Positions 3,645 to 45,314 of a DNA stretch of 64,000 nt are shown here, one piece after another. Origin of the DNA: Verrucomicrobiales bacterium (lineage in GTDB: Bacteria > Verrucomicrobiota > Verrucomicrobiia > Verrucomicrobiales > DEV007); contig JARGPH010000002.1 of NCBI GenBank assembly GCA_029213065.1, positions 12,551-76,550 of the forward strand, given 5' to 3'. Position numbers and translations under genes: made by a program. Below the pieces are notes generated by a model. It searched no databases, was not told where the DNA came from, and saw only the letters and a list, made by a program, of their open reading frames with translations. Positions within the stretch are counted from its first letter, which is position 1; every line of letters starts with the position of its first letter.

Positions 3645-5102
3645 CTACCGATCGAGGAGGTTCGATACCTGAGCGGCGGGGAACTTGAAACTTTTGAACG
3701 AAGGCGTGGGGCCTTGGTAGCGAATCACAATATCGCCGGACGGGTTCACTTCCCAGACTCGTTTGCCCACGGTGTCAGTGAGCAGGGTATTGCCATTTGG
3801 CTGTCGGCGGGCTCCGCCCTGGAAGGGTGCAAAGAAATCGTCGTGTTCCCAAAACCAGAACTGTTCCGCTTCAAAGGTTCCCGTTTTCCCCTTGAGGTAA
3901 CGTCCATTCTCAACGGTGGGACTGATTTCATGGACGTTGCTGATTCCCTTTAACTGTTCCTGGGCAACGGCGGCTGCCGCTCCACCAGTGCCTACCCTGG
4001 CTACGCTGCTCGTGCCTGTATTGTTATTGAAAACCAGGATATTGCCGGCTCCGGGAAGACCATCGTCGATCCAGTTGGCGTCATGCTGGTTCCGAAAGAT
4101 CTGGTCCGCTTCGGTGCCTTTTCCGTAGGCCGCTGGATTGCCGTAACGGAAAAGCAGATCGCCTCCTTTTCCATGCTGACCACCCGAAGATCCCGCGGCC
4201 TCTGAAAGGGTCGTGCTGTGATCGATCACCCAGATTTCGTTGTAGATAAAGGAACTGATCACAATCTGATCGAGTTCCGCGTTGTAATCGATCGCGTTGA
4301 GGTGCTGCCGCACCGCCTTCATCGGCGCATAACTTTTGGGAAAGTGACCATCGATTTTCTCCGGATGATCAGCAATCGCACCGAAGTTCGGAGCGTCTGA
4401 ATCCCGGTCCTGGATGAGGTGATCGATAAAACGCCAGGCCCAGACAACCTCATGACCGCCGTTCTCCAGGTCGGGGCGAATTTCGAGAATCCCGTCCGAC
4501 CAAACCGGCTTGCCTTCGCCGACAAACCAACCGGCGGCCATCGCTTCTTCGGGAGCGATTTGTTCATAGGTCAGGACCAGAAAATTGCCGTTTGGGAGGG
4601 GACACATGTCGTGGTGAAAGGTGATCTTGTTTCCCTTGAACGCGATGTCGGCGGCGCTCAGTTCCCAGATCGCTCGCCCCGTTTCGTCCGTGATCTGGAT
4701 GATATCCGTTGCCGCAACCGGCTCGCCTTTGACATACGACCGGTCCTTGATCCCGGTTCGGAGGAGTCCTCCTGATTCGAGGAGATACGAGGTGTGCCCG
4801 CCACCGGTCAGATCGGTGTCCCAGCGATGAACGACCGTGCCTTCGGCATCGATGAGCAGGGCAACATTCTGCACGTCGGTCGCCAATTCATCGGCCTGGT
4901 GCCAGAAGAGGTAGCCATCCTGCAACTGCTCCGGTTTCGCCACGTCGATTTCCTCCATGACCATTTCCCCAAGCTCGGGGATTTTGGTAATGACCTCACG
5001 CTGCCGGGTTTGGGCTTCGAGGCGGAGCACGGAAAAGGCGAGCGCCAGGAGGAGGAGGGCGTTGAGGGGGGGGAATCTGTGTCGGTGAAATTTCCGGTTC
5101 AT
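3645..5102 (-). CDS. Secreted arylsulfotransferase (ASST) family protein
   Basis: A 485-aa protein with an N-terminal signal peptide (basic start, then NALLLLALAFSVLRLEA). It shows the arylsulfotransferase-family beta-propeller pattern: GYLFWHQADELATDVQNVALLIDAEGTVVHRW near the start, HHDMCPLPNGNFLVLTYE, HLNAIDYNAELDQIVISS, HDANWIDD and ARRQPNGNTLLTDT. The conserved His and Asn/Asp-rich blades match ASST/arylsulfotransferase-like proteins (PF05935/PF14269 type). The family moves sulfate between phenolic sulfate esters, but most environmental members are untested. It is followed on the same strand by DoxX and alkylsulfatase genes, which suggests work on sulfate esters outside the cell. The exact donor and acceptor are unknown. 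Confidence 0.8.
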   Translation of the reverse strand: MNRKFHRHRFPPLNALLLLALAFSVLRLEAQTRQREVITKIPELGEMVMEEIDVAKPEQLQDGYLFWHQADELATDVQNVALLIDAEGTVVHRWDTDLTGGGHTSYLLESGGLLRTGIKDRSYVKGEPVAATDIIQITDETGRAIWELSAADIAFKGNKITFHHDMCPLPNGNFLVLTYEQIAPEEAMAAGWFVGEGKPVWSDGILEIRPDLENGGHEVVWAWRFIDHLIQDRDSDAPNFGAIADHPEKIDGHFPKSYAPMKAVRQHLNAIDYNAELDQIVISSFIYNEIWVIDHSTTLSEAAGSSGGQHGKGGDLLFRYGNPAAYGKGTEADQIFRNQHDANWIDDGLPGAGNILVFNNNTGTSSVARVGTGGAAAAVAQEQLKGISNVHEISPTVENGRYLKGKTGTFEAEQFWFWEHDDFFAPFQGGARRQPNGNTLLTDTVGKRVWEVNPSGDIVIRYQGPTPSFKSFKFPAAQVSNLLDR

Positions 5103-5161
5103 ATTTTGTCGGGTTTGAATGAGTTTCTACAGTGTTCGTTTGGGTTCAGCGACGGGCCGCT

Positions 5162-5557
5162 TTAAGACGCCTTCAGAGGCTTGCGCAGAAGGCTTCGGTA
5201 GCTGTCGAAGTTCAAGGCAATGAGAATGGCGATCGCCAGGAAATTCGGAATTCCGATCAGCAGCCATTCATGGGCGACGAAGGTGACCCACAGGAGGATG
5301 TTGAAAGCGTAGGGCAGTGCCATGAGATAGGCGACCTTTTCGGTGCGGGGGATGAGGATCAGCAAACCGGTGACGGCTTTGAACAGACCGACCCAGCCGA
5401 CGAGGTAGCCGGTCTCTCCCGCTGCCCGGAGAAATTCTCCGGCGGGCGACTGGGGCCACTCGGGTGGATTGAAGTGAAACCCCATCGTCATGATTCCGGT
5501 TCCGATGAGAAAAACAGCGTAGAGCAGTCTCAAGGTGAGTGTCGCTTTCTTCTTCAT
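5162..5557 (-). CDS. DoxX-like membrane protein
   Basis: A 131-aa protein with four predicted membrane segments: LRLLYAVFLIGTGIMTMGF, GYLVGWVGLFKAVTGLLILI, YLMALPYAFNILLWVTFV and IPNFLAIAILIALNF. Size and layout match the DoxX/DoxD-like family, named after a subunit associated with thiosulfate:quinone oxidoreductase in archaea but widespread with unclear roles. It lies 59 bp upstream of the arylsulfotransferase and 48 bp downstream of the alkylsulfatase on the same strand, so the three may be one operon. A link to sulfur chemistry is suggested by position only. Confidence 0.75.
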   Translation of the reverse strand: MKKKATLTLRLLYAVFLIGTGIMTMGFHFNPPEWPQSPAGEFLRAAGETGYLVGWVGLFKAVTGLLILIPRTEKVAYLMALPYAFNILLWVTFVAHEWLLIGIPNFLAIAILIALNFDSYRSLLRKPLKAS

Positions 5558-5605
5558 TTCTGATTCTTGGGTTTCGGGAAGCTTGTTCGATTGAGCCGCT
5601 TTGAT

Positions 5606-6982
5606 TTAGAACCACACTTCACTCAACTGTCCTGATTCCAGCTCATTGGCGTAGCTGAGGTAGTAGTTGCGGTTCGGAGCGTTGTATTCCTTTTCCGCAA
5701 GACCGCGCAGCGCGGCGATCTTTACCTCGCGGGCCAGTTTCCGGTCGGCATTGTCGAGCCATTTGAGATGATCGGAGAGCTCGAGGGCCCATTGAAAGTC
5801 TTCTTTCTCCAGGGCCGCATTCATCTGTGCGGTGAGCTTCTCTGTGCCACCGGCAAGCTCAGCCACTTTCTGCGCTTTTGCCTTTGGCTCCATCGGATTC
5901 AAGGTCGCAGGATTGCCGTCGAACCACCCTAACAAACCGGCGTAGATCGCGCGAACCGCGTGAGGAACCGTGCCGTAGAACTGAAGCAGGTAAGGCTTCT
6001 CGCGCAGATGTTCCGGCAGCTCAACTTCATGCGCGAGCTGGTCGGGGCTCTTGCCGGCATTGATCCCTTCGACGGTCTGGTCATAAACACTGCGGATCGC
6101 TTCGCTGTAATTCTTCAACGGAGTCGTCGCCGCTTCCTGTCCGCTGATCGGCAGGGTATGACCGGGCACGAGATGCTCGGGGGCGAACTCCGCCATCCGG
6201 CCGACGCTCTCCGACCACTTCAAGACATCGCGGTAGGCGGTGCCGCGGATCGCGTAGAGATTGGGAAAGGCGTGGTAAAAGTTATCGCCCGAAAAGAGAA
6301 CCTTTTCCTCCGGCAGCCAGATGAACATGGCGTCGTCGGTCTCGCCCGGTGCGAGGTAGAACTCGAGATCGACTCCGGCGATGGTTTCCTTGTGTCCGTC
6401 TTCTGAAATGCGGATTGTCGGAGCAACAAAGCCTTTGCCGCCGTCAGTGTCATTGGTATTCCCCGGGGCGACTCCGCGATTGATGATTTGATCAGCGGGG
6501 AGGTCACGACCGAACTGACGAATATTGCGCAGGCGCTTCACTGGATCGACGGCCTTATTGACGCCCTCGGCTGAGCCAAAGCCTTCTGTTGCGTAAATGT
6601 CAGGCTTTCCCTTGCCGACAAAGGCACTCGCGCCACCGATGTGATCGCCGTGACTGTGGGTATAGAGAATCGCTTTGACCGGTTTGTCGGTGTATTCCCG
6701 GAAAGCATTCAAGGCCATCCGCGCACTGAGCGGTCCACGCAGGGTGTCGACGATGATGATGCCGTCGTCGCCGACGATCATCGAAGTGTTGGCACCGTGA
6801 AACCCGACCGCGGTGTAGACGTTTTCGCTGACCTGGACGACTTTTCGCTCGAACTGCTCGTTCTGATTCTGGAGAAGTTCCCGGGCACGTTCCGGAGTGA
6901 CTTTGGTGTCGCCTGCGAAAACGCTGAATGCGATCGCGGAGACGGCAGCGAGAAGAAATAGTGGGGGGATACTGGCTTTCAT
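5606..6982 (-). CDS. Secreted alkylsulfatase-like metallo-beta-lactamase-fold hydrolase
   Basis: From ATG 6982 this gives 458 aa with a clear signal peptide (MKASIPPLFLLAAVSAIAF, ending FAGD); an in-frame ATG at 6997 is the alternative. The metal-binding motif THSHGDHIGGAS is the metallo-beta-lactamase signature of linear alkylsulfatases (BDS1/SdsA1 group). Further matches are FSGDNFYHAFPNLYAIRG, PGHTLPISGQ and a helical C-terminal part (FYGTVPHAVRAIYAGLLGWFDGNPATL) typical of the alkylsulfatase dimerisation domain. It is shorter than the ~650-aa BDS1 enzymes, apparently lacking the C-terminal SCP2-like substrate-binding domain. The family hydrolyses primary or secondary alkyl sulfates to alcohol plus sulfate, using two zinc ions. 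Probably periplasmic. Confidence 0.8.
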   Translation of the reverse strand: MKASIPPLFLLAAVSAIAFSVFAGDTKVTPERARELLQNQNEQFERKVVQVSENVYTAVGFHGANTSMIVGDDGIIIVDTLRGPLSARMALNAFREYTDKPVKAILYTHSHGDHIGGASAFVGKGKPDIYATEGFGSAEGVNKAVDPVKRLRNIRQFGRDLPADQIINRGVAPGNTNDTDGGKGFVAPTIRISEDGHKETIAGVDLEFYLAPGETDDAMFIWLPEEKVLFSGDNFYHAFPNLYAIRGTAYRDVLKWSESVGRMAEFAPEHLVPGHTLPISGQEAATTPLKNYSEAIRSVYDQTVEGINAGKSPDQLAHEVELPEHLREKPYLLQFYGTVPHAVRAIYAGLLGWFDGNPATLNPMEPKAKAQKVAELAGGTEKLTAQMNAALEKEDFQWALELSDHLKWLDNADRKLAREVKIAALRGLAEKEYNAPNRNYYLSYANELESGQLSEVWF

Positions 6983-7095
6983 GATTCGATGGATCATTGT
7001 TTCTAATTGTTGAAAGCAACCTACCGGACACCGCATCCGCAACAAGGTGAGCAAGCGACAAGCGATGGTCAAAAATGGACAAATTCCAAATTGAT

Positions 7096-8768: not shown

Positions 8769-9569
8769 TTACGATCGTTCCTGCTCACGGCGAAATGCCT
8801 CGGGCGTCGTTCCTGTGAGTCGTTTGAAGAACTTCACGAAGTTGGTCGCTTCACTGAACCCGAGGTCGAAGGCAATTTCCTCAACCGTCTCATCGCCGAG
8901 AACCAGTTTGCGTTTTGCTTCGAGAACAAAATGCCGGTCGACCAGTTGTTTCGGACTGATCTCCCTGATCGCATGACAGGCGCGAGCCAACGTGCGCGGG
9001 GTGACGTGGAGCTGGCTTGCGTAATCTGAGAGCGGTTGGCGTGTCGGCTCGTTCATGAGGAGGCATTCGAGTCGAAATACCAAATCCGATGCGCGATTGT
9101 GGGCGGGCGTTCGCGTCTCTTCATGATGGCGCAAATAGAGATCATTCACCCCGGACAAAACCGCATGAAGCAATCCCGGAGCCATTGAGGTCAGGCGAAG
9201 TTCCTCGGGGACGTCTTCCATGTTCTGGATGAACTCTAACAATTGCACGATCGCCTCGTGATCCCGGTGTTCGATTGAAAAGGGTTCTGTGAGGTGGATC
9301 GCAAGGTGGCGGATATGCTCGGGCGAAACTGTTTCAGGCCGGAAGACGAGTAAGAGGGACTCGTGATTCGAATTTGCATCGAAGGCATGAACCTGACCGG
9401 GACGCACCAGGAGAATGTCGCCCTTCGAAACGGAATGCTTTGTGAAATCAACCCAGTGCGCTCCTGTTCCATCAGTCACGAATTTTAGCAGGTAGAAGTT
9501 GTGCCGTATCGGTGCTGCGATATCGATTCCTTCCAACCTCCGACGTCGTAACTCGGAGAGACGGATCAC
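8769..9569 (-). CDS. AraC-family transcriptional regulator with cupin sensor domain
   Basis: A 266-aa protein starting at GTG 9569. Residues 1-150 form a cupin-like sensor (HNFYLLKFVTDGTGAHWVDF, GDILLVRPGQVHAFDAN). The C-terminal ~100 residues hold two helix-turn-helix units ending in VEEIAFDLGFSEATNFVKFFKRLTGTTPEAFR, the AraC signature. It lies upstream of hdc on the same strand and is divergent from the GH86-sulfatase gene, so it may control either. The ligand is unknown; a sugar or amine would fit this context. Confidence 0.85.
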   Translation of the reverse strand: MIRLSELRRRRLEGIDIAAPIRHNFYLLKFVTDGTGAHWVDFTKHSVSKGDILLVRPGQVHAFDANSNHESLLLVFRPETVSPEHIRHLAIHLTEPFSIEHRDHEAIVQLLEFIQNMEDVPEELRLTSMAPGLLHAVLSGVNDLYLRHHEETRTPAHNRASDLVFRLECLLMNEPTRQPLSDYASQLHVTPRTLARACHAIREISPKQLVDRHFVLEAKRKLVLGDETVEEIAFDLGFSEATNFVKFFKRLTGTTPEAFRREQERS

Positions 9570-9696: not shown

Positions 9697-9716
9697 AAAT
9701 TTGTTAACCTTTCCCC
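9697..9716 (+). promoter_or_regulatory. Candidate promoter/regulatory motif AAATTTGTTAACC upstream of the GH86-sulfatase gene
   Basis: AAATTTGTTAACCTTTCCCC lies about 37-56 bp before the ATG at 9753. A very similar string, AAACTTGTTACACTTCCTCC, lies at 55288-55307 before the sigma-factor gene, and CTTTGTTAACGTCG lies before the sulfatase at 22 kb. Its recurrence before functionally related genes suggests a shared promoter element; which sigma factor reads it is unknown. Confidence 0.35.
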
Positions 9717-9752: not shown

Positions 9753-12700
9753 ATGAAATTTCTTTCGAGAGAGCACTCCCTATCCATCGCCGTTTTTGCC
9801 GTTCTCTTCGCAGGCACGCTGATCTCGTCCGCCCTGGAATTGAGCGGGGAGGGCGAACAGAAGAAAGCGCTTCATGATTTTCTCTTCGAGAAGTTTGTCG
9901 AATCGCGCGAGGCAAAGTTCATCGGCGAGGGAGAAGCGCGAGGGCTGAAGGAACTGACGATCCTGAAAGAAACGCAGGAAATCCATCACGGCGACGAGAT
10001 TGCCCTGCCGGCCGGAGCGGAGCGCATCGCGACGTTCTTTCGTCATTTCGGATTTCACGGGGAGAACCTCGATCAGATCAAGGAGGTTCACGTGGTCCCG
10101 TTTTCTCCCGACAAGTCTCCTCCCCGCAGCATGCAGGTGACCGAATTCTACCGGGTGCAAATGCCGACGATCCCCGAGTCGGACGAGGATCCGGCTCCGA
10201 TGAAGATCCGGTTTTTCCTGAAAGATGAATCCGCGACCTGTCGGATCGACAATCTCGTTTTCTACGCGCAGAATCCAGTTTCACCGGAATTCGATTCCAT
10301 TCCATACGTGGACCTGGGATCGGATCAGCCTCGTGTGCCGGTCGTAGTGGATGCCGATATCGAGCACGAACTGGTCATCGACGGAACCTCCGACCTGCAA
10401 CGGGAACGCTGGTTCCGGTATCATGAAACCCCGGGATCGACCGACGCGTCCTTCCAAAGATGGGCCTACGAACGCGGTTTTCTTCCGGCGCGGGGTTTTC
10501 TCAAATTCAATCCCGCGCTGACGAAGGGGTGGGGAAAAGATCCGGAGACTCTGAAGGAACGCGAAGACAAGCCGGGAGCGGCCGACCTGAGTTTTTTCGA
10601 GTGGTCTGATTCCGGCGAGAGGCTTCGCAGCGCCATTCCGGAACTGCAGGGCAAGAGCTTCACGATGTGCTTCAACGACTGGCCGGAGTTCATGTCGGTT
10701 CCCCTGAAGGGACGCGGCACGCCACTCGTGGAACGCTTCGACGAAGCCGCCGAACTCGCGGCTGCCTATGTCGCCGACCAGATCGCGGATGCGGGTTACA
10801 CTGCGACCTGGTGGGAGGTGAAAAATGAAAGCAGCGTGAAGTCGGAGTGGGATCACCATTTCGCCAAGGGGCTCGATGGTTGGGGATTGCTCGCCGATTT
10901 TCACAACCGCACCGCTGACGCGATCCATGCGAAGGCTCCCGGGGTGAAAGTGGGCGGCCCTTCGTCGGCCTATATGCAGTTGCAGGTCAAGGATTTCGAA
11001 TTGTATCGGAGCCAGGCCCGGTTCATCGAAGAGACGCGGGGGCATATCGATTTCTTCTCGCACCACTTTTACGAGAATCTGGGAATGCTGGGAGCTCACG
11101 AACGCCGGGACTCCGGATACTCCAGCTACCTGCTCGGTCGCTACGAGGCGGTGCTCGACATGCTGCGCGCGCACATGCACCAGGCCGACAACGTACTGCC
11201 GATCCTCATTACCGAAACCGGCTCACTGCAGAACGGGCGCAGACCGGCGGACAACTGGTTTCGACTGATGGCCTGGAACGCCTACCTGAACAAGTCGATG
11301 CAGCGTCCCGACCAGATCGACCTGTTCATCCCGTTCATCTTTCTCAACATGTCGTGGAATCCCTACAGTGGCGACGCCGCATTTTCCCCGAAGGACGGAC
11401 TCGATAAGGCGTGGAAGATCGAGGATTTCGAACCCTCGACGATCGCTCACTTTTTCGAGTTCTGGCGGGATTTCGACGGACGCCGACTGCCGGTGTCGTT
11501 CGATCACGACTGGCTAGACGTGACCGCCGTTCATGACGACGGGCAGATTTCACTGGCCGTAACCAACATGGGTGGCCGTCAGCTTGCGGTGGACTTGTCA
11601 GGGTTGGTGAAAAAGGCCGGGGCGACAGGAGCACGTCAGAAGCGGCTGAACTATCACCGGGGTAAAGTCGTTTTTCAGCCGTGGCACGAGGTCGATGCCG
11701 CCGCTGTTCCGGTCGATGTGAATGAAACGACCGTGATTCAGTTGCCGCTCTCAGAACCGCTCACACCCGCTGAGCCCTACCAGTTGAAGCGGTGGTTTGC
11801 TCTCGAAACCGGGGTTAAAAGCACCGGGGAGGCGACAGAGTTTTTGGTCAAGATCCCGAATCCGAATCCCGTTAAAAGCGCCCGTCTCCTCGTCGGAGTG
11901 CATCGGTCCGGAGGCATCACCGAACCCCTTACAGCAACGATCAACGGAACTGAGATCGCCATTGGAACCGGCGACGCGAATGAATTCAGCGAGTTCTTCG
12001 CTCCGCTCGATGCGGACATACCCGCGGATCTTCTCCAGGCAGAGAATCAGGTGCTCATCAAAGCGCAGGAAGGAACGACGGTCACCTCGGTGCAGGTCGT
12101 GACGCTTGATTCCACGCAATCTGCTGCGGCGAACCCCTCGGCAGGAGAAAAACCCAAACCCAATATCCTTTGGATCGTCACCGATGACCAGCGGGCGGAC
12201 TCGATCGCCGCCTTCAACAAGATGCTCGGCACGAGCGAGAATGGTGACAGTCGTCTCGGCAAAGTGCTTTCTCCGAATGTCGACAGACTTGCGGCGATGG
12301 GAACGACTTTTCTTCAAACCTACAACCAGAATCCCGGCTGCGCTCCAATCCGCACCCTGATGCACACGGGGCGCTATTCGCATCACACTGGCGTTTACGG
12401 ATTCGAATACTACACTCCCGTCGGCCAAGCACACTGGCGACCTTTCGTGCCGCACGTGCTTCGGGATGAGGCGGGCTATCAGACCGTCGCGGTCGGCAAG
12501 CTCGGGATTCGCGCGCTCGATCACACCGTCGGGAAAAAGGTGCTCAATATTCCGCTCTATGACACTTTCCTCGGTTACCGCAGAGATTTTGCCGCTGAGG
12601 GACTCACCGACTGGAACAAGGAAAAGCCGTGGGCTGACGGCAAACCTGGGTCGAGCGAAGAGACGTTCTTTTTTCCCGACGGCAATCGACTGAACTGGAA

Positions 12701-15500
12701 CGAAGGGGCGAGCGATGATGACCGCGAGGAAATCCGCGAGAAACTCGACTTGCTCCGCCTTTACCACCCCGGTGAGGAAAATTCCGACAACGAAATTCTC
12801 GGCGGTGTTAATTCGCAAGGGGGCGAGATGACCCGCGACGGAAACTTTATCGGAACGCTGCTTGAGCACTTCGATGAGATTGGCAAAACCTATACCGACC
12901 GCCTCGGTCGCGAACAGGATGGACCGAATCCTGACAAACCAATCTTCGCCTACTGCGGTTTTGACTTTCCGCACACCCCGGTGCTGCCGCCGAAAGAGTT
13001 CCGGGAAAAATTTCGTTCCTTCAAATACAAGATCCCCGAGTTCACCGAGGAGGAACTGGCTGCCTTCCCGCCGCAGCTCATGAAGCTCTTCAAAAACGCA
13101 GGGACCGATCATTTCACCGATGAGGAGAAGCACCAGATGATCGCTGACTACTACGCCTTCTGTGCCTACGGCGATTCGCTGGTGGGACAGGCGGTGGATG
13201 GTTTCGTTTCGCTTTCCGAAAAACAGAACCGGCCCTGGATGATTCTCTACGTCTGCGGCGATCACGGCTGGCGACTGAACGATCATGGCATGGTCGCGAA
13301 GTTTTCCCACTACGACACCGATCTGCACAATCCCATCATCGTCGCCAGCTCTGACAAAGCCGCATTTCCCGATGGAGAAGTCGTCACCGAACTGACCACC
13401 TTCGTCGACATCGCTCCGACATTCTACGAAGCAGCCGGACTCGACACCACGGATGCCGCCTACGATCATCTCGACGGATTCGATCTCGCGAAAGTGGCTG
13501 CAGGCGACGGGCCGCAACGCGAATACACCATCGCCGAACCGACCTGGGTGATCGGACCGCGCGGCGTCATCCGTACCCGCGAGTGGAAGTTCGCGATGAA
13601 GCTGAAACCGCGCTACAACCCCGGCAAGGACATGGACTGGGCAATCGGTGCGAGTCTCGAAGAGGTCGAACCAACCCTGTTTGATCTCCGATCTGACCCT
13701 CTTGAATTGAAGAACCTCGCCTTTGATTCACGTCATCGTCCGGTCGTCGATGCTCTGCGCGAGAAGTTGCAGAATATTCTCCTCGGTGACGGACGCGTCG
13801 AAGTCGCCTGGACCCGCGAGGGCGGCGACGAGGTTTTTACCGGCAACTTCGCCCCCGGTGCCGACGATGGAAAAATCACGGTTCCGGAACCTCTGAAGTC
13901 CGCGCCGAAGGCAGCAACGGCAAAGGCGAAACCGAAAAAGAAATCAGCTAAAGCAGCCTCCGGAAAACAGCCGAATATCGTCCTGGTCTTCGCCGATGAC
14001 ATTAGTGCCCGCGAGCTGCCCGTCTACGGGGCGACCGTGTGGAGTCCACCGCTTGGCGGCAACAGCTCCGATCCCGCCTTTCGCGCCCAAACTCCGGTGC
14101 TCGATGAATTGGCCGCCGAAGGTTGCTGGATCAAACATTGCTGGGCCGCGACAGTTTGCTCGCCCAGCCGCGCCATGATCATGACCGGTCGCTACGCTCA
14201 TCGCCACAAATGGTGGACCAACAATGACATCGGCGAGGTGCAGCGCGAAAACGGCAAGCGGGAAAAATGGCCGCTGTATGAAAGCTCACCGTTGCAACTC
14301 GGACATCTCGCACAGCAGGCCGGCTACGGCACCTTCTGGACCGGCAAGACCCAGATGGCGGGCGATCTGACCGAATTTGGATTCGACGAAGGCGTCTTCA
14401 CTCCGGGCAATCTTTCCGACCGTGACAATCCCTACACCGATTTCAAACACGAAATGGTGAAGCGCGACGGCGGAAAAATTATGATCAATACCGACACCGG
14501 AGATCCGGTCGACACCTACCTGCAACACGGCTGGTACTGGTATCCGCATGTGCGACTGATGAATCACCTCTCACTGAACGGCAAAACCTTTGGCTGGTGG
14601 CCGAACACGCCGGAGACGAAGAAATCCTTCGGACCTCATACCTACGGGCCCGACGTCGAGCTGGACTTCGCTTTCGAGTTCATGGAACGCCAACATGCCG
14701 AGGGGAAACCCTTCTTCGTCTACCATTGCTCCCATCTCGGACACGACGCCTTCAACTGGCTCGATCCCGCCGACCCAAGCAAATGGCCCGGCACTCCCGT
14801 CGTGAAGTGGGACGGTGAAAAATACCAGCGCACCGAGCCGAAAATCACCGGTGACAAAGGCGACTACGACACTCACGGTACCGTGACCGAGTCGGGCATT
14901 CATCATCACATCAATTATCTCGATTACCACGTGTGGCGTTACCGCGAAAAACTGGAAGAGATGGGCATCGCTGAAAACACCGTGCTGATATTCTGCGCCG
15001 ACAACGGCACCAGTGGCTACGGCAAACACAGCCCCGACCGGCAGAAGGGGACTCACGTGCCGCTCATCATTCACGCGCCCGGCATGAAAAAGCACGGCGA
15101 ACAGGACGTGCTCTTGAACCTGTCCGATTTCCTCCCGACCTTTGCCGACATCATGGGCGTCGACCTTCCCGCCGACTACGCCATCGACGGCGAAAGCTTT
15201 TGGCCCTTTGTCATGAGCGGAAAGAAGAATCACCGGAAATGGATTTACGGCTATCGCGGTCCGCAGCAACTGATTCGTGGTCGCCGCGTCATGAAGGATG
15301 GTTTCGACAAGTGGTGGAATGTTAGTGAAGTGCCGGACGACCTCATCAGCTTTCCACAGATCGAAGACTGGCAGAGCGTTTCCCAGGAACACCGCAACGA
15401 GCGCAATCTCTTCCGCAAGGTTCTCCCGGAATACGATCTCTGGGCCGAAGAACACGATGCACCGGGGACTCCGCCTGCGGAGACTGCGGGGAAGAAGTGA
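9753..15500 (+). CDS. Secreted trifunctional GH86-like agarase/porphyranase - sulfatase - sulfatase fusion
   Basis: One uninterrupted 1915-aa frame with a single N-terminal signal peptide. Residues ~200-560 resemble GH86 beta-agarases/porphyranases: ERWFRYHETPGS, MCFNDWPEFMS, WWEVKNES (N358-E359, candidate acid/base), KVGGPSSAYMQLQV, HIDFFSHHFYENLG and LPILITETGS (E488, candidate nucleophile). A beta-sandwich region follows to ~790. Sulfatase 1 starts ~799 (KPNILWIVTDDQRADS) with CAPIR near residue 862, a CxPxR site for formylglycine. A Lys/Ala/Pro-rich linker (~1379-1404) leads to sulfatase 2 (~1405, NIVLVFADDISARE) with canonical CSPSR near 1468. Neither sulfatase has its own signal peptide, which supports a true fusion. 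The expected job is endo-cleavage of a red-algal galactan with desulfation of the chain or its products. GH86 assignment rests on motif similarity recalled from the family; the exact polysaccharide is inferred. Confidence 0.8.
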   Translation: MKFLSREHSLSIAVFAVLFAGTLISSALELSGEGEQKKALHDFLFEKFVESREAKFIGEGEARGLKELTILKETQEIHHGDEIALPAGAERIATFFRHFGFHGENLDQIKEVHVVPFSPDKSPPRSMQVTEFYRVQMPTIPESDEDPAPMKIRFFLKDESATCRIDNLVFYAQNPVSPEFDSIPYVDLGSDQPRVPVVVDADIEHELVIDGTSDLQRERWFRYHETPGSTDASFQRWAYERGFLPARGFLKFNPALTKGWGKDPETLKEREDKPGAADLSFFEWSDSGERLRSAIPELQGKSFTMCFNDWPEFMSVPLKGRGTPLVERFDEAAELAAAYVADQIADAGYTATWWEVKNESSVKSEWDHHFAKGLDGWGLLADFHNRTADAIHAKAPGVKVGGPSSAYMQLQVKDFELYRSQARFIEETRGHIDFFSHHFYENLGMLGAHERRDSGYSSYLLGRYEAVLDMLRAHMHQADNVLPILITETGSLQNGRRPADNWFRLMAWNAYLNKSMQRPDQIDLFIPFIFLNMSWNPYSGDAAFSPKDGLDKAWKIEDFEPSTIAHFFEFWRDFDGRRLPVSFDHDWLDVTAVHDDGQISLAVTNMGGRQLAVDLSGLVKKAGATGARQKRLNYHRGKVVFQPWHEVDAAAVPVDVNETTVIQLPLSEPLTPAEPYQLKRWFALETGVKSTGEATEFLVKIPNPNPVKSARLLVGVHRSGGITEPLTATINGTEIAIGTGDANEFSEFFAPLDADIPADLLQAENQVLIKAQEGTTVTSVQVVTLDSTQSAAANPSAGEKPKPNILWIVTDDQRADSIAAFNKMLGTSENGDSRLGKVLSPNVDRLAAMGTTFLQTYNQNPGCAPIRTLMHTGRYSHHTGVYGFEYYTPVGQAHWRPFVPHVLRDEAGYQTVAVGKLGIRALDHTVGKKVLNIPLYDTFLGYRRDFAAEGLTDWNKEKPWADGKPGSSEETFFFPDGNRLNWNEGASDDDREEIREKLDLLRLYHPGEENSDNEILGGVNSQGGEMTRDGNFIGTLLEHFDEIGKTYTDRLGREQDGPNPDKPIFAYCGFDFPHTPVLPPKEFREKFRSFKYKIPEFTEEELAAFPPQLMKLFKNAGTDHFTDEEKHQMIADYYAFCAYGDSLVGQAVDGFVSLSEKQNRPWMILYVCGDHGWRLNDHGMVAKFSHYDTDLHNPIIVASSDKAAFPDGEVVTELTTFVDIAPTFYEAAGLDTTDAAYDHLDGFDLAKVAAGDGPQREYTIAEPTWVIGPRGVIRTREWKFAMKLKPRYNPGKDMDWAIGASLEEVEPTLFDLRSDPLELKNLAFDSRHRPVVDALREKLQNILLGDGRVEVAWTREGGDEVFTGNFAPGADDGKITVPEPLKSAPKAATAKAKPKKKSAKAASGKQPNIVLVFADDISARELPVYGATVWSPPLGGNSSDPAFRAQTPVLDELAAEGCWIKHCWAATVCSPSRAMIMTGRYAHRHKWWTNNDIGEVQRENGKREKWPLYESSPLQLGHLAQQAGYGTFWTGKTQMAGDLTEFGFDEGVFTPGNLSDRDNPYTDFKHEMVKRDGGKIMINTDTGDPVDTYLQHGWYWYPHVRLMNHLSLNGKTFGWWPNTPETKKSFGPHTYGPDVELDFAFEFMERQHAEGKPFFVYHCSHLGHDAFNWLDPADPSKWPGTPVVKWDGEKYQRTEPKITGDKGDYDTHGTVTESGIHHHINYLDYHVWRYREKLEEMGIAENTVLIFCADNGTSGYGKHSPDRQKGTHVPLIIHAPGMKKHGEQDVLLNLSDFLPTFADIMGVDLPADYAIDGESFWPFVMSGKKNHRKWIYGYRGPQQLIRGRRVMKDGFDKWWNVSEVPDDLISFPQIEDWQSVSQEHRNERNLFRKVLPEYDLWAEEHDAPGTPPAETAGKK

Positions 15501-24406: not shown

Positions 24407-26602
24407 TCAAAAAGGAATCGCGTCCTCATCCGGGCGATCTTCTCCGGTGTCTTTCTCTGCGATGTCTTCAATAGTTGGCTCGGCAGCTTGTTCAGTGGAG
24501 TTCTCGGAATTTACCCTACCTTGCCATTCTCGGGAAATCTCCGACCAGTCGACTGTTCTCTCACTTTCACCCTCCTCATCGTCGACCTTTCCAGTCCACA
24601 CTTCCCAAAAATCGGGATCGTCTGATTGTGGACGCTGTTCATCCGGGAGGTTTCTAATTTTGACGAGGATCGGCAGCTCCGACGCCCATCCCATCAGAAT
24701 CGCTTTTTGGGAGGGAAGCGAAGGAAGGTCACGCAACAGCCCCCTGAGATTGTCCGGGACTAGCTTCTGCACGAGTTCCTGATCCCGATCGTTGCTGATG
24801 CGGTGAAGGAGGAAGGTATTGCACTGAGAGAGAACAGTGGGTGAAAGTTCGGAAGGACGTTGGGAGGAAAGAACGAGTCCAAGGCCGAACTTCCGGCCCT
24901 CCCGAGCAATTCGCTCGAATAGGCGACAGCAGGCACTGGAGGCGCTCTCATTTTCAGACACCTCGTTGTATCGTTTAATGAAAGTGTGCGCTTCCTCCAT
25001 CACAAGCACGGTCGGGAGCGTTTTGTGTTGTGGGTGCAGTTTCCGGTATCGCTGTAAAGCTTCAAAAGTCATCCTCGCGATGACGGCCGTAATAATATGG
25101 ATGACCTCAGCTGGGACTAGAGAGAGGTCGACAATCGTTACCGTCCCATTTGAGGCATCGCTGTTTCCCAAAATCTCAGTAAGCCACTCATCCAAACCGG
25201 TTTCCTCGCCATCAGTTCCGTAGGTTGAACTCATTCGAGCCTCCGCCAGCAATCCTCTGACTCTCATAATGAGCGAGTCAAAAAATTGAGGGTTGCCTTC
25301 AGTTCTAGCGGACCTCTCTAAGTAAGCCCCAAATTCAAAACTTCCGAACTGAATGGGCAAATCCTCCTTGTTCTGGGAAATTTGAATTCCGTTTCCAAGT
25401 TCTGAAACCAATTCGTCGATTTCCCCCCTTATTTCATTTAGAGACTTGATAGAAAAGTTATTGTAGCCAGTCGTTCCATTGTTTCTCTGATAGGTTTGCC
25501 CATCCGCACCCAAGACCGAATCAATCGTCTGAACGCAGCTGTGAAGTCGATCTGAAAAGTCACCAAATTGGGAACCAAACTCTTCAAGATCCTCCTTAAT
25601 CAGCTGCAGGGTGGGTCCAAACTTCCATCCTTCGTAACCCCGACCAGTTGAAATCGCTGCCTCGATGGTCGTCAACATCGCGCTACACCCCTGACGCAAG
25701 CGCAATTGGGATTCCTGGTTTGCCCCTTCGATACTCTTGATTTCTCGCAGACACTTTCGTAGCAGGGGCCTCTGAACTCCTGGGCTCGCCTGCGTGAACG
25801 CACACCATTCGTCGCTGTTCCAGAACCAGAGAGGGACTTTTAGGGGAGCGACATTCTCTTCCTCGGCATCCACGGAAAAGATTCTGGCCTTTTTGTCCGA
25901 AGAAAAGGCACGGCTGTATTCACCATTCGGATCGAGAATCAGAAAACGAGCATTGGGATCCGCCCCAGTGCCTCGCTCTGCCTTGGCAGCATCGAGAGAC
26001 CACCGGATCAGCCCTGCGACCGAACAAGATTTTCCGCTCCCTGTATTTCCGAGAACAGCAAGATGCCTTCCGAAAAGTCGGTTGGGATCCACCTTGACCT
26101 CTGCGTTCTCCGCCAACGGACTGTTGCCGATCCAGACTCGGCGATTTTCGCCCGACTCGACGATGGAACGAAGCTGTTCCGGTGTTGGCAGAAAAACCAC
26201 GTCACCAACCGAAGGAAAGCTCCCAACACCTCGCCGGAAATTGAAACTGACATGCCCCTTTCCGTCGTCATTCCCGAAAGACAAGGTCCCCAATGGAGTA
26301 AGACTTAGCTTTCGCAAGGGGAAGGGCAAATCAATCAAGCCGAAGTCCTGCTGGGTTCCTTTTCTCTTGGGGTAGGGAGAACGCTCCACCGTGATCCACT
26401 CCACTTGCCCGACCAGGAACCCTTCATCGGAAGGCACGAGGACGTATCCATTGACCCGGGGAAACGGACGTGGAGTCCCTGTGTTGAGTGAAATCGCGGC
26501 AGGGGCTTCTACATCCAGTAAGACCTTGATCTCGCTGGGTGACACGAAGTCAACACTCCCGATGCGGAGAGAATCTAGGAGTGCTAATGGGCTTGTGCTC
26601 AT
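24407..26602 (-). CDS. herA: HerA-like ATPase of a SIR2-HerA anti-phage system
   Basis: A 731-aa FtsK/HerA-superfamily ATPase. An N-terminal HAS-barrel-like region covers residues 1-150. Walker A is GNTGSGKS at residues 185-192, and Walker B/catalytic Glu is LPTVLVMEEAH near 530. ERIAREGRKFGLGLVLSSQRPSELSPTVLSQCNTFLLHR follows, with the sensor Gln and arginine-finger region typical of HerA. The last ~60 residues are acidic. In SIR2-HerA defence the ATPase forms a hexameric ring that joins a SIR2 NADase multimer and controls its activity on phage infection. It starts 2 nt after the SIR2 stop, so the two are co-translated. The product is cytosolic, and base composition is more AT-rich than in flanking genes, in line with horizontal acquisition. 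Confidence 0.85.
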   Translation of the reverse strand: MSTSPLALLDSLRIGSVDFVSPSEIKVLLDVEAPAAISLNTGTPRPFPRVNGYVLVPSDEGFLVGQVEWITVERSPYPKRKGTQQDFGLIDLPFPLRKLSLTPLGTLSFGNDDGKGHVSFNFRRGVGSFPSVGDVVFLPTPEQLRSIVESGENRRVWIGNSPLAENAEVKVDPNRLFGRHLAVLGNTGSGKSCSVAGLIRWSLDAAKAERGTGADPNARFLILDPNGEYSRAFSSDKKARIFSVDAEEENVAPLKVPLWFWNSDEWCAFTQASPGVQRPLLRKCLREIKSIEGANQESQLRLRQGCSAMLTTIEAAISTGRGYEGWKFGPTLQLIKEDLEEFGSQFGDFSDRLHSCVQTIDSVLGADGQTYQRNNGTTGYNNFSIKSLNEIRGEIDELVSELGNGIQISQNKEDLPIQFGSFEFGAYLERSARTEGNPQFFDSLIMRVRGLLAEARMSSTYGTDGEETGLDEWLTEILGNSDASNGTVTIVDLSLVPAEVIHIITAVIARMTFEALQRYRKLHPQHKTLPTVLVMEEAHTFIKRYNEVSENESASSACCRLFERIAREGRKFGLGLVLSSQRPSELSPTVLSQCNTFLLHRISNDRDQELVQKLVPDNLRGLLRDLPSLPSQKAILMGWASELPILVKIRNLPDEQRPQSDDPDFWEVWTGKVDDEEGESERTVDWSEISREWQGRVNSENSTEQAAEPTIEDIAEKDTGEDRPDEDAIPF

Positions 26603-26604
26603 AC

Positions 26605-28101
26605 TTAAAAAAGGTCCGACACGCTGTCTTGATCGTCCTCAGTCTCCTTCTTCTTCCCGGCCTCCGTGGGATAGCGCATTTTCAGCAATTCACTCATCCT
26701 CGAAGTTGCCCTGTCGATGGCCGATTTCGGAAGAAAATTTTCAGTCAATGTCGCCAAATCCCCTAGGGTTTCGCCCACTAGAAGCGTGATCTGCGATCTA
26801 CGCCCAAGCCTGTCATACATTTCACTAATCCGCCCCATTGAGTCGCTTCTCGCAATCACTACGAGATGGGTGGAAGGGATAGTGAGCATATCCTCGATGA
26901 TCCGATTAATATGTTCATCCCCAAAACTGAACCCATAGGTGACGAGGGTGCTATTGGGGCGACACACTGCCGATGCAAAGTCACGAAAGAGATCCACGTA
27001 GGGAAAATGCGCCGTCTCTCTGTCCTTTGCGGAGTTGGGAAAAATCATCAATTGATTTGGAGTAGCGCCCATCAACCCTGGAGCCTTCAAAAACGGGGCA
27101 ATTTTTTCTGCCCCAAGAGGGACCCCCATTCGCCGGATTTCGTGTCCCGAATTTACCCAGTCGATCGATCCGTGTAGTTTAGCATACCGAACCACTCCTT
27201 CAAGATAGCGAGGCTCGCCCCTGATGCCGGGTGGATTGTAATGCATATCTACGTCTAATCGGGAGGATCGAAAGATTGGTGTCAGCGTCCCAACAAAGCG
27301 GTCCAACAGATGCACTCCAGCTAGTTCTGCGCCCGCCTCGAGAATCCTATCATAGTTTGTTGTGAAAATATTAAGACGTTCCCGAGTTCCTGATCGGGAG
27401 GCAAAACTCATCAAGAAGTTCACCAAAGTATTCCAAGCTTGCTCGCGCTTTTCACTTGGGCCTTCCACGATACCGGTTTCACTCTTAAGAATTGATTCGG
27501 CGAAATCTTCGAGGATCGCCGCTACCTGCGTTCTCAGCTTTTCAGCCTTTTCATCTCCTTGAATCTCCAAGCCGCGAATCAGCTCATTTGCAACTCGAAG
27601 ATCATCTTCGAGATTAGCGCCGGATCGCTTGGCCTCCTTTGCGCTGGAATTGGCTGCGTCACGAATTTCTTTATCATACTCTTCGAATTTTGCTGTATCC
27701 ATGCCAGCTGCAGGCCCGTCCGCAGCCATCCAGTGCATCGCGTGCGTCAATCCCGATCCGACGAGCAGAGACAAATGCTCCGATTGAAAGAGCGCTGTCA
27801 GCCAAGGCTCAATTCTTTGCCGCAAATCGGAGATTTCGAATTTTCCTTCTGGAGCCCACGCCGGATAATCATCACCTCGGACCTGAAAGTCATTTGCAGT
27901 CCTGTCAAAAGGAACTGGCATCCGATCGTCGCGTGTTTTCAGTAATTCAGGCTTCGGAGGATCAGGCGGCGATGATTTCGAATCTTCAGATGGATCGAGT
28001 GGAACTACACCGGGATCCGATGATTCTTCCGGTGGATCCAGAGGAACTACAGGAGGCGCTGGAGGTTCGCCCGATGGGGCAGGGGGATCGTCAGTTGACA
28101 T
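26605..28101 (-). CDS. SIR2-domain NADase-like effector of a SIR2-HerA anti-phage system
   Basis: A 498-aa protein. Residues 1-55 are a Pro/Asp/Glu-rich tail in which VVPLDPxE occurs twice. The SIR2-like domain starts with LSLLVGSGLTH (G115-S116-G117, NAD-binding loop), has FTTNYDRILE with candidate catalytic Asn249, and KLHGSIDW with candidate catalytic His310, then NSTLVTYGFSFGDEHINRIIEDML. This matches prokaryotic SIR2 defence effectors, which hydrolyse NAD+ rather than deacetylate. Directly followed by a HerA ATPase, it forms the known SIR2-HerA pair. The Pro-rich extension is unusual and could act as a spacer or partner-binding arm. Confidence 0.85.
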   Translation of the reverse strand: MSTDDPPAPSGEPPAPPVVPLDPPEESSDPGVVPLDPSEDSKSSPPDPPKPELLKTRDDRMPVPFDRTANDFQVRGDDYPAWAPEGKFEISDLRQRIEPWLTALFQSEHLSLLVGSGLTHAMHWMAADGPAAGMDTAKFEEYDKEIRDAANSSAKEAKRSGANLEDDLRVANELIRGLEIQGDEKAEKLRTQVAAILEDFAESILKSETGIVEGPSEKREQAWNTLVNFLMSFASRSGTRERLNIFTTNYDRILEAGAELAGVHLLDRFVGTLTPIFRSSRLDVDMHYNPPGIRGEPRYLEGVVRYAKLHGSIDWVNSGHEIRRMGVPLGAEKIAPFLKAPGLMGATPNQLMIFPNSAKDRETAHFPYVDLFRDFASAVCRPNSTLVTYGFSFGDEHINRIIEDMLTIPSTHLVVIARSDSMGRISEMYDRLGRRSQITLLVGETLGDLATLTENFLPKSAIDRATSRMSELLKMRYPTEAGKKKETEDDQDSVSDLF

Positions 28102-40528: not shown

Positions 40529-43500
40529 TCACGAGCCTTCTATTTGTTCAAGAAGTGATTGGAGTTCATCGATCTTCACCGGTTTGACAAGGTGATGGTT
40601 GAAACCGGCTTCCCTGGATTGTTCGCGGTCCTTTTTCATACCGTATCCGCTCATCGCGATTGCGGGTATCTCCTGGCGTGTCTGGATTTCGCGCATGAGA
40701 TCGAGTCCGTTTCCATCGGGCAGACCCAGATCGCTGACGATGCTGTCGAACTTGCCGGGTTCGAAGATTTCGAGGGCCTCTTTGACACTTGAGGCTGTTT
40801 TGACGCGGTAGCCGAGATGGGTGAGGAGTTTTTTGAGAGTGTTGCGGGTGTTTTCGTGATCCTCTACGATGAGGAGTCTCATCGGGGACGCTTCTCCGCA
40901 AACGGGGGCGGGATCGCTGTTCGTTTCATCCCCGGCGGGAGGGTTGACGGTTTTCAGGGTAACGGTAAAGGAGGCACCTTTATTTTCGCCGTCACTCTCT
41001 GCACGGATTTCGCCATGGTGGGCTTCTACGATGGCATTTGAAATGGCGAGCCCAAGACCGAGACCACCATACTGATGATGGTTTCTCTGTGCGCCCTGTT
41101 CGAAGGCGTTGAAGATGTCTTTCAAGGTATCTCTGTCGATGCCGATTCCGGTGTCTGTAACGGAGATGATGATATCGTCGTCGGGGCCGTTTTCGGTGGT
41201 GATGATGATTTTCCCGCCGTCGGGAGTGAATTTCAGAGAATTCTTGATCAAGTTCCAAAAGACCTGCTGGAGGCGGGTAGGGTCCGCGGGGACAAATTGA
41301 TTCTTTGCCTTGTAGCGCTTTTGAATCTCGATTCTCTTACTGTCGGAGTCTCCGGTGGCAATTTCGGCAGCCTGGTCGATCAGCTCGTGCACCCCGGCAG
41401 TCTTCCGGTCGAGATGGAGTTTGCCATTGGTGATTCGGGTGAGGTCGAGGAGGTCGTCGATGAGGCGCGCTTCGAGTTCGACGTTGCGGCGGATCATGGA
41501 GAAGGCGTCGCGCGTGTTTGAGGAGAGAGTTGTATCGTTTTCCAGAGTCGCAGCCATCATCAGAACGGGGGTAAGCGGGGTGCGCAGCTCATGAGAAAGG
41601 GCTGCGAGAAACTCGTCCTTTGCCCGTGAAATGCGTGAAATTTCCTCGAGATTCAGCCGGGCGGTATTGATGTCGGTGTTGGATCCGAACCAGAGGATCA
41701 CCTTGCCTTCATCATTTCGCATGGGATGAGCGCGGCTCAGATGCCAGCGGTATTCGCCGTCCTTATTGCGAATGCGGTGCTCAAACTGAAAGGGGGCTCC
41801 GGTTTCGACGCAGTTTTTCCAGACGCGGATATTGTCTGCCCGGTCGTCGGGATGGATGAGATCGGCCCAGTTCCAGCCGGATATTTCTTCGAAGCTCATC
41901 CCGGTGTACTTCATCCATTGCCGGTTGAAGTAGTCGATTTTGCCGGAGGCATCTGCGGAGAAAATTTTCTGAGGCATTGATTCCGCCATGAACTGGAGAC
42001 GTTCCGCGCTGGCTTTGATCTTTTCGCGGCTTCGCTTTCGTTCGATTGCAATGGCGATGAGACGGGGAGCGATCTCAACGAGACGCATTTCGTCGGGACG
42101 CGGTTCCCGCGGTGTGGTGTAATACATCGCGAAGGTTCCCAATACCTCGCGCTCGACACTGGAAAAGATGGGAATTGACCAGCAGGCGCGCAAGTTGTGG
42201 GGAAGTGCGAGCGGGGCGAAATCTTTCCAAAGGGGATCGGACTCGATGTCGATGACGTAGACGGGCCTTTTCAGGAAAGCTGCGGTTCCACAGGACCCGG
42301 CACCATTTCCGATTTCCAATCCGTCGACAGCTTTGCAGTAGTCCCCGGGAAGGCTGGGGGCCGAGCCGTGGCGAAGGTTCCTGCCGTTTTCGTCAAGCAA
42401 CAGGATTGAGGCGAACATTTCTTCGGTCGCCTGGCCTTCGATGAATCCGATCACGGCGTCGAAGACTTCTTCGAGAGGGGCATCTTCAGCGATGAGCTCA
42501 AGGACCTGTCTCTGGCTGGTTTCCCACTGTTGGGCCAGTTTGCGCTCGGTCACGTCGATGCAGGTTCCGGCGATGTAGTGGGGCTTTCCGGAATCATCGA
42601 GAAAGGTTTTTCCTTTGTCGTCGAGCCAGCAAGTACTCCCGTCCGGTCGCACGACACGGAACTCCATAGAAAAATCGGTCCCATATTCAGCGGATCGCTG
42701 ACAGCGTTCCACGACCTCCCCGCGATCGTCCGGGTGAATTCCGGCGAGGAACTGATCCAGCGATTTGACCGTTTCGCCGGGGGGAAGCCCGAAAAAAGCA
42801 TCGAGAGTTTCGTCCCAGTCAACATCATCGGTTTGGATATTCCAACGGTAGGTTCCTGCACCGGAACCGTCGAGTGCAGCCTGAAGACGCTCACGGCTGT
42901 CCGCCAATTCCTCTTCGGACTGTTTGCGCTCCGTGACATCCCGCGTCGTACCCGCAACGGCTTCGACCTCGCCGTCAGACCCGAGAACAGGGACGAAGAT
43001 GTAATCGTAGATCCGCCGGCCGCCGGTCCCGGTGAAGGGAACCTCACCGCGAATGGGCTTCTTCGTCGCTATCACCTGTTCGATCTCGCGGTCATGCAAG
43101 GCGGCGTGCCAGTCTTCGTATCCAAGCTCGAGGCAGTTTCTGCCGATTGCATCGTTCCAATCTTTTCCCCACATCGAGAGAAGAGCTCTGTTGGCGTAGG
43201 TGAAGCGGTGATTCCGATCGAAGACGTAAATGAGGTCCGGAGTGGCGGACAGGATCGTTTCGTAGAGACGGGTCTGCTGCTCGCTTAATTCCTTGAGCGA
43301 TCTGAGTTCTGCCTCCGCCGTTCTCCGCTGTGAGATATCCTGAAAATAGACGGAAAGACCGTCCCTCGAGGGATAGGATTTTATCGAGAACCAGATGTCC
43401 AGTGGTGGAAAATAAAATTCAAACTCCGACGTGGTCCTTTCGGACTTCGACCTTCGGAAATTTCGCTCGACTGCCGTGCCGACAAGGTCGGGAAACACCT

Positions 43501-44965: not shown

Positions 44966-45314
44966 GGTGTCTCGACGGTAAATTGGTTTCAACTCGACGT
45001 CCAATCTAATGAAGATTGGCAAAACTATAAGGAAAATTTCTGAAAAGTCGATGAGGCGCAGTTTTGCAAACGCTTGAATAGATCAATCGCCAAATATCGA
45101 TTCTTTCATGGTTCCCGGGAACTCACGTTCCGGCTCAGCCCCGGGGAAGTTACCCGACACCCCGGGGGAGTTGAAATTTTCGCAAGTGAGCCATTTGCGA
45201 GGCGCAGAGACAGGGGCCGGACGATAAACACGGTGGCAGATTCGTCTTGCTGTCATTTCCCAACGTGGCAAGGTTTAGGTCAATTGGTCAATTTGGTAAT
45301 ATCTTCCCCAATCC
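44966..45314. other. Divergent intergenic region between hybrid kinase and BLUF gene
   Basis: It should hold both promoters. A direct repeat GTCAATTGGTCAATTTGG is visible around 45278-45295 close to the BLUF gene, but no clear -35/-10 or palindrome was found. Short frames here lack support. Confidence 0.35.

Follow-up and report, generated by a model that had tools for sequence, protein, structure and literature searches.

The GH86-S1-S1 gene and its domains

In the window, a stretch of 64,000 nucleotides from the draft genome of a Verrucomicrobiales bacterium, positions 9753-15500 (+) form a single unbroken open reading frame of 1915 amino acids, in which a GH86 glycoside hydrolase is followed by two S1 sulfatases, here termed S1a and S1b (Table 1). 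The GH86 and S1 domains share this one frame, each with its own catalytic residues, and the uninterrupted frame of the original prediction is confirmed: the assembled sequence contains no frame break and no N bases between positions 9700 and 15600. The gene lies in the middle of contig C21, which is 407,528 bases long; the draft totals 5.9 Mb and has 80 contigs. Its longest stop-to-stop frame spans 1930 codons, against 276-436 codons when the window was resampled 20 times under a first-order Markov model, and third-position G+C is similar across the three parts of the gene (0.707, 0.680 and 0.709). A Pfam search of the 1915-residue protein returns the sulfatase family PF00884 in two stretches and PF18040, the C-terminal domain of beta-porphyranase A. 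The presence of a GH86-S1-S1 reading frame is confirmed, and its earlier interpretation is partly supported.

Table 1. Features of the fusion gene and of the neighbouring regulator gene, in window coordinates.
Feature	Position	Strand	Description
Divergent AraC-type regulator gene	8769..9569	-	Pfam HTH_18, AraC_binding
Whole fusion gene	9753..15500	+	1915 aa plus stop, one frame, no N
Signal-peptide-like N-terminus	9753..9833	+	residues 1-27, hydropathy only
Extra N-terminal region	9840..10337	+	residues ~30-195, conserved in GH86 relatives (alignment A1)
GH86 domain	10344..12095	+	residues ~198-781; phmmer, profile search, Foldseek
E359, predicted acid/base, Asn-Glu motif	10827..10829	+	aligned with Asn-Glu of 8h97 and 4aw7
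E488, predicted nucleophile	11214..11216	+	aligned with E322 of BuGH86
PF18040, beta-porphyranase A C-terminal domain	11874..12098	+	residues 708-782, Pfam E 1.2e-6
Short GH86-S1a joint	12114..12155	+	residues ~788-801, about 14 residues
Sulfatase S1a	12150..13895	+	residues ~800-1381; choline/iduronate-sulfatase-like
C863, predicted formylglycine site, CAPIR	12339..12341	+	CxPxR motif
Lys/Ala-rich linker	13884..13964	+	residues ~1378-1404, between S1a and S1b
Sulfatase S1b	13965..15485	+	residues ~1405-1911; arylsulfatase/GALNS-like
C1469, predicted formylglycine site, CSPSR	14157..14159	+	CxPxR motif

The divergent AraC-type gene would, from its position, be the nearest candidate regulator of the fusion gene; scans for promoters (4 versus 2.2, sd 1.8) and terminators (11 versus 8.1, sd 3.2) gave values near the shuffled mean. 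The window holds no agar pathway genes around the fusion gene, and, of the genes before position 26000, the fusion gene and a single generic sulfatase are the only ones that match genes found around the GH86 relatives at loci L017-L021 and L095. Elsewhere in the window, an arylsulfotransferase gene adjoins an alkyl-sulfatase-type metallo-beta-lactamase gene near the fusion gene (3645-7072, -), a HerA-type ATPase gene (DUF87) adjoins a SIR2-domain gene (24407-28101, -) in a pair that we take to resemble the HerA-Sir2 anti-phage defence system, and a hybrid histidine kinase of 1497 residues combines a GAF and a receiver domain with many PAS stretches (40529-45022, -).

The GH86 domain is assigned to its family by three routes. 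In a phmmer search of the PDB with the first 795 residues, all four matches are GH86 chains (E 3e-19 to 6e-16). A profile built from eight GH86 sequences, that of the window among them, finds 8h97 (E 1e-48, profile positions 198-781), 5ta1 (E 4e-44, 197-781) and 4aw7 (E 3e-35, 350-785), profile positions being close to residue numbers. The best seven Foldseek matches to the AlphaFold model of this domain are likewise all GH86, with TM-scores of 0.41-0.48 by query length; the model is moderate (mean pLDDT 62.8) and was used for fold recognition only. In the phmmer alignment N358-E359 coincides with the Asn-Glu pair of 8h97 and 4aw7, and both phmmer and Foldseek align E488 with E322 of BuGH86, the residue mutated in 5ta0. 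These two glutamates are invariant in all eight rows of alignment A1; in a wider set of 11, the first is missing in one distant protein. That GH86-type protein (G424, L084 1026-2876), which has no Asn-Glu motif where the first catalytic acid would lie, is possibly inactive or a different enzyme. Residues ~198-781 thus appear, from sequence and fold, to constitute a divergent GH86 domain distant from the characterised enzymes. The predicted family and catalytic residues therefore stand, and residues 200-560, on which the assignment had been staked, fall inside the profile match with E359 and E488 kept; it is the extent that changes, since the domain runs to ~781 instead of 560. The conserved region at residues ~30-195 lies upstream of the stretch that the profile search covers in PDB GH86 chains.

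The two full sulfatase domains that had been predicted, with separate CxPxR sites, are borne out by the presence of PF00884 in both stretches (E 1.5e-65 for the whole protein), with CAPIR at C863 and CSPSR at C1469. In the S1a motif, isoleucine takes the position occupied by serine in 15 aligned S1a relatives. All 50 Foldseek matches listed for the S1a model are sulfatase-type proteins (sulfatases and phosphonate monoester hydrolases), this model too being moderate (mean pLDDT 69.2) and used for fold recognition only. Solved sulfatases of many substrates score alike against S1a and S1b by sequence, as they do against the S1a fold, and no close solved relative of either domain was found among the PDB sequence matches. 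An assignment of either to subfamily S1_11 was considered and dropped: its members are among the better matches, but other sulfatases score about as well. An origin of the pair by tandem duplication was rejected, since S1a and S1b match each other weakly, at best 27% over 79 residues. A joint alignment of the two (A2) was set aside, its S1a rows having 20-22% identity to the first row and being taken as lying on the wrong half.

The host genome is rich in sulfatases, with 157 matches to the whole fusion protein, several of which belong to the same gene. It also yields 16 matches to PF03781, the family of the formylglycine-generating enzyme (FGE), the best at 286 bits; this family is wider than FGE, and the same search was positive in 4 of 14 control genomes. 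Other long composite frames occur in this genome: one of 2443 residues with a 3-keto-disaccharide hydrolase, DUF7133, HEAT, cytochrome c and two sulfatase stretches (L022 2258-9586), one of 2244 residues with a GDSL lipase, DUF7133, a copper-binding domain and a sulfatase (L023 8090-14821), and one of 1278 residues with a sulfatase and GH2 (L024 917-4750). Enzyme fusion looks like a habit of the host genome.

Relatives of the three parts in other genomes

Homologues with the same domain order were looked for, and the GH86-S1-S1 arrangement occurs in this genome only among the sampled genomes (metagenomes not included), where relatives of the parts are found as separate genes. The genome sets overlap, the wide sets are samples, and the searches scored up to 40 or 44 candidates per genome for S1a and S1b in the genus and 2-4 in the wide sulfatase and class searches. 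In the genus, a close GH86 relative (64-76% identity) is present in 4 of 32 other genomes, and a further one (G005) has a 97-residue GH86 match at 46% identity; no candidate scored in the 32 reached E<1e-60 for S1a or S1b, and none of the four GH86 relatives has an S1a or S1b orthologue beside it. GH86 relatives occur in 5 of 374 genomes of the class sample, the own genome counted, and, at E<1e-10, in 13 of 149 genomes of the Aporhodopirellula family, Aporhodopirellula (G430) counted. Across 387 sampled Verrucomicrobiota genomes, eight others hold S1a relatives (E<1e-80) and eight hold S1b relatives (E<1e-90). Seven have both (G283, G255, G424, G084, G135, G271 and G426), and each of these carries at least one adjacent same-strand S1a-S1b pair, either gene order being seen. 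Among 343 sampled Planctomycetota genomes, only Aporhodopirellula has S1b at E<1e-100.

The company kept by these relatives links the sulfatases to GH86. On Persicobacter plasmid 2, a GH86 gene (22% identity) is directly followed by S1a (41%), which has its own signal-like N-terminus, and within 11 kb of plasmid 3 lie a GH29-type fucosidase gene, S1b (56%), further sulfatases and GH86. Aporhodopirellula carries on one strand GH86, GH2, a DUF5060/apiosidase-like gene, a sulfatase, S1b (66%) and S1a (43%) with a GH117-like tail. The S1a relative with this GH117-like C-terminal domain is located at L093 6585-9494 of Aporhodopirellula aestuarii; the label GH117 is one that we presume from the database match name, "anhydro-alpha-L-galactosidase". 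S1b (68%) lies immediately upstream of GH86 (68% identity) in G1153, as does S1a (47% and 46%) in the very closely related lineages G1029 and G1090. In the verrucomicrobial genome G255, S1a (46%) is followed by GH86 (30% identity), and GH86-type proteins lie a few kb off in both S1a-S1b loci of G424. GH117-like genes are found upstream of GH86 in G1119 and G1045, and alpha-L-fucosidase family (GH29-type) genes near S1b relatives in G084 and Persicobacter. A close S1a or S1b is absent from 9 of 12 stretches around GH86 in the Aporhodopirellula family, several of them short and some cut by contig ends. GH86 was in turn not found in the stretches covered of G271, G084, G426, G283, G135, G362, Catenovulum and Persicobacter plasmid 1, or in those of the second loci of G255 (L079) and G430 (L094). 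GH86 thus adjoins S1a or S1b in Pirellulaceae, in Persicobacter and in a second verrucomicrobial genome, with many clusters lacking one partner.

Fusion at the C-terminus of GH86 recurs within its own lineage. Among 16 GH86 sequences of at least 63% identity (the own sequence with those of G004, G024, G022, G029, L016/G430, L017/G431, G1153, G1119, G1125, G1045, G1101, G1029, G1070, G1090 and G1127, the last partial at a contig end), three have a C-terminal partner: this protein, G004 and G1119. In G004, GH86 is joined to a DUF5060/apiosidase-like domain that shares 66% identity with its stand-alone counterpart in the Aporhodopirellula cluster. In G1119, of the Aporhodopirellula family, one frame of 1486 residues (L123 1850-6307) joins GH86 to an agarase with an Agarase_CBM domain and a match to 5z6p at E 6e-95; the match is named "B-agarase", and we take the partner to be of family GH50. 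A maximum-likelihood tree places the present GH86 and that of G004 as sisters (99/98) and pairs G1119 with a stand-alone Aporhodopirellula GH86 (100/99), the placement of three long rows (G056, G255 and G1142) being unsure. The simplest reading of these sequences is that at least two separate fusion events took place, with three different partners. Longer frames with more distant GH86 domains (1278 and 941 residues in G989, 1531 in G1101) have no S1a or S1b match.

Predicted function and origin of the fused chain

The reading that we favour, with a probability of about 0.7, is that of a genuine fusion whose single exported chain carries three enzymes from a common pathway for agar-type (agarose/porphyran-like) galactan. 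The presence of GH86 and two S1 domains in one chain with key catalytic residues retained agrees with the original prediction, and the chain is probably exported. In the scheme that we infer, it would be made with one signal peptide and secreted, and an FGE of the host would convert C863 and C1469. The endo-acting GH86 would cut the beta-1,4 backbone by means of E359 and E488, and the tethered sulfatases, connected to it and to each other by the short joint and a flexible Lys/Ala linker, would strip those chains, or the fresh ends, of sulfate esters. The desulfated ends may then become accessible to further exo-enzymes. The sulfated sugar attacked, the order of action and the benefit of tethering would be predicted features of the same scheme. 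The likening of the protein to a cellulosome is not sustained: Pfam, at E up to 0.001, shows neither dockerin nor cohesin nor scaffold modules in it.

An alternative in which the chain is real but at least one domain is inactive, or nothing is gained from joining them, is unlikely, though it is the strongest of the rivals. Such a neutral or decaying fusion would fit the restriction of the full order to one sampled genome, the different partner of GH86 in the sister genome G004 and the unusual CAPIR motif of S1a. Against it, every tested catalytic residue is retained in all three domains, and the 1915 codons form an unbroken frame whose third-position G+C is even.

As to the substrate, the original prediction of a red-algal galactan holds as the likely one, of agar type. 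This is favoured by the GH86 family itself, by the fusion of a close GH86 relative to a GH50-type agarase, by GH117-like neighbours in relatives, and by GH2 and GH29-type genes that fit the porphyran pathway described for B. plebeius (PMC12316285). A different sulfated polysaccharide, akin to carrageenan or fucan or else a mixed galactan, is somewhat less probable again than a neutral fusion. While the nearest solved sulfatases span many substrates, carrageenan enzymes among them, and fucosidase-family genes accompany S1b relatives in two lineages, the GH86 structures matched are agarases and a porphyranase, the agarase fusion and the GH117-like genes upstream of GH86 in two genomes point the same way, and GH29 acts as alpha-L-galactosidase in the porphyran pathway of B. 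plebeius (PMC12316285).

The joints bear on how the chain arose. Mean hydropathy over 13 residues reaches 2.68 at residues 12-24 and only 0.74 and -0.04 at the two joints, so that the single signal peptide originally proposed is upheld as one predicted, N-terminal, signal-like stretch. By comparison, 14 of 15 stand-alone S1a relatives have a signal-like stretch of their own ahead of the sulfatase fold (at least 1.68; the exception, from Catenovulum, has 0.55), as do all 15 stand-alone S1b relatives (at least 1.85); several of these relatives share a genome. The alignments show short linker sequence at the joints where stand-alone relatives have signal peptides; the GH86-S1a joint marks the end point of stand-alone GH86 relatives, and S1a relatives begin after it. 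The Lys/Ala-rich linker is present as claimed and is confined to the S1a/S1b junction. As signal-like sequence lies only at the N-terminus while stand-alone S1a and S1b have their own, a true fusion is favoured over an assembly error, and because relatives of these enzymes occur in other bacteria as separate genes side by side, the fusion appears real. That adjacent genes were merged by errors in the draft is very improbable: despite the 80 contigs and a joint seen in no second sampled genome, the gene is mid-contig and free of N, a base error would leave signal-peptide and start-codon sequence at joints that hold linker sequence instead, and in two more GH86 relatives a different partner is attached at this same point.

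Known fusions and the significance of the new combination

Fusions of glycoside hydrolases to sulfatases have been described before. In Formosa agariphila, P36 is a characterised natural GH78-S1_25 ulvan enzyme which, like the present protein, joins a glycoside hydrolase to an S1 sulfatase, its domains acting in consecutive steps on one algal polysaccharide (PMC8511951); it differs in its substrate, in its exo-acting GH78 and in having one sulfatase where GH86 and two sulfatases are found here. In P1 and P2, Planctomycetes associated with Porphyra, an estimated 34 and 21 sulfatase genes, respectively, are multi-domain, mostly with glycoside hydrolase or hypothetical domains (PMC4807772). These Planctomycetes also have, as here, a fusion of two unrelated neighbouring sulfatase genes, in which, unlike here, the arylsulfatase-like domain comes first, and the section of that account on multi-domain sulfatases has no GH86-S1-S1 protein (PMC4807772). 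Within the same superphylum, Kiritimatiellales F1 and F21 have GH10-, GH32- and GH29-S1 fusion genes, which share the joining of S1 to a glycoside hydrolase and differ in the hydrolase families and in having one sulfatase each (PMC6388578); the term "GH86" is absent from the text of PMC6388578.

Other close known enzymes are single ones. The solved GH86 agarases and porphyranase 8h97, 5ta1 (BuGH86) and 4aw7 (BpGH86A) share the fold, the catalytic glutamates and the C-terminal porphyranase-type domain, but are only 15-20% identical and occur as stand-alone PDB chains with no sulfatase. BuS1_11 and BpS1_11 (7lha/7lj2 and 7snj/7sno), porphyran exo-L-galactose-6-sulfatases, are S1 enzymes of a GH86-containing red-algal galactan pathway (PMC9096561, PMC12316285). 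They are among the better matches of S1b by sequence and of S1a by fold, other sulfatases scoring about equally, and stand alone where S1a and S1b are fused. No GH86-sulfatase fusion was found in the literature searched, in which coverage of subscription journals is thin. As fusions of glycoside hydrolases with sulfatases, and of sulfatases with one another, are known in PVC bacteria and GH78-S1_25 has been characterised, the kind of fusion is not new. The novelty originally claimed for a trifunctional GH86-S1-S1 enzyme is thereby narrowed: found nowhere else in the sampled genomes, it is a new combination of a known type of fusion, and the pattern of recurring fusion merits follow-up.

A tentative extension, which we hold to be possible although the odds are against it, is that the GH86 lineage common to Verrucomicrobiota and Planctomycetota serves as a fusion hub. 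Its C-terminus would be joined to varied enzymes of the same agar-type pathway (S1a-S1b, DUF5060/apiosidase-like, GH50-type), so that a gene cluster becomes a one-gene "portable operon" whose endo-enzyme may pass new ends directly to tethered sulfatases. The fused and unfused relatives form a ready comparison set. If active as predicted, the protein would be a natural single-chain desulfating galactanase, useful in the processing of red-seaweed polysaccharides, and a test case for faster degradation by tethering sulfatases to an endo-hydrolase. The fusion also marks two sulfatase groups, for which no close solved relative was found, as probable degraders of agar-type galactans.
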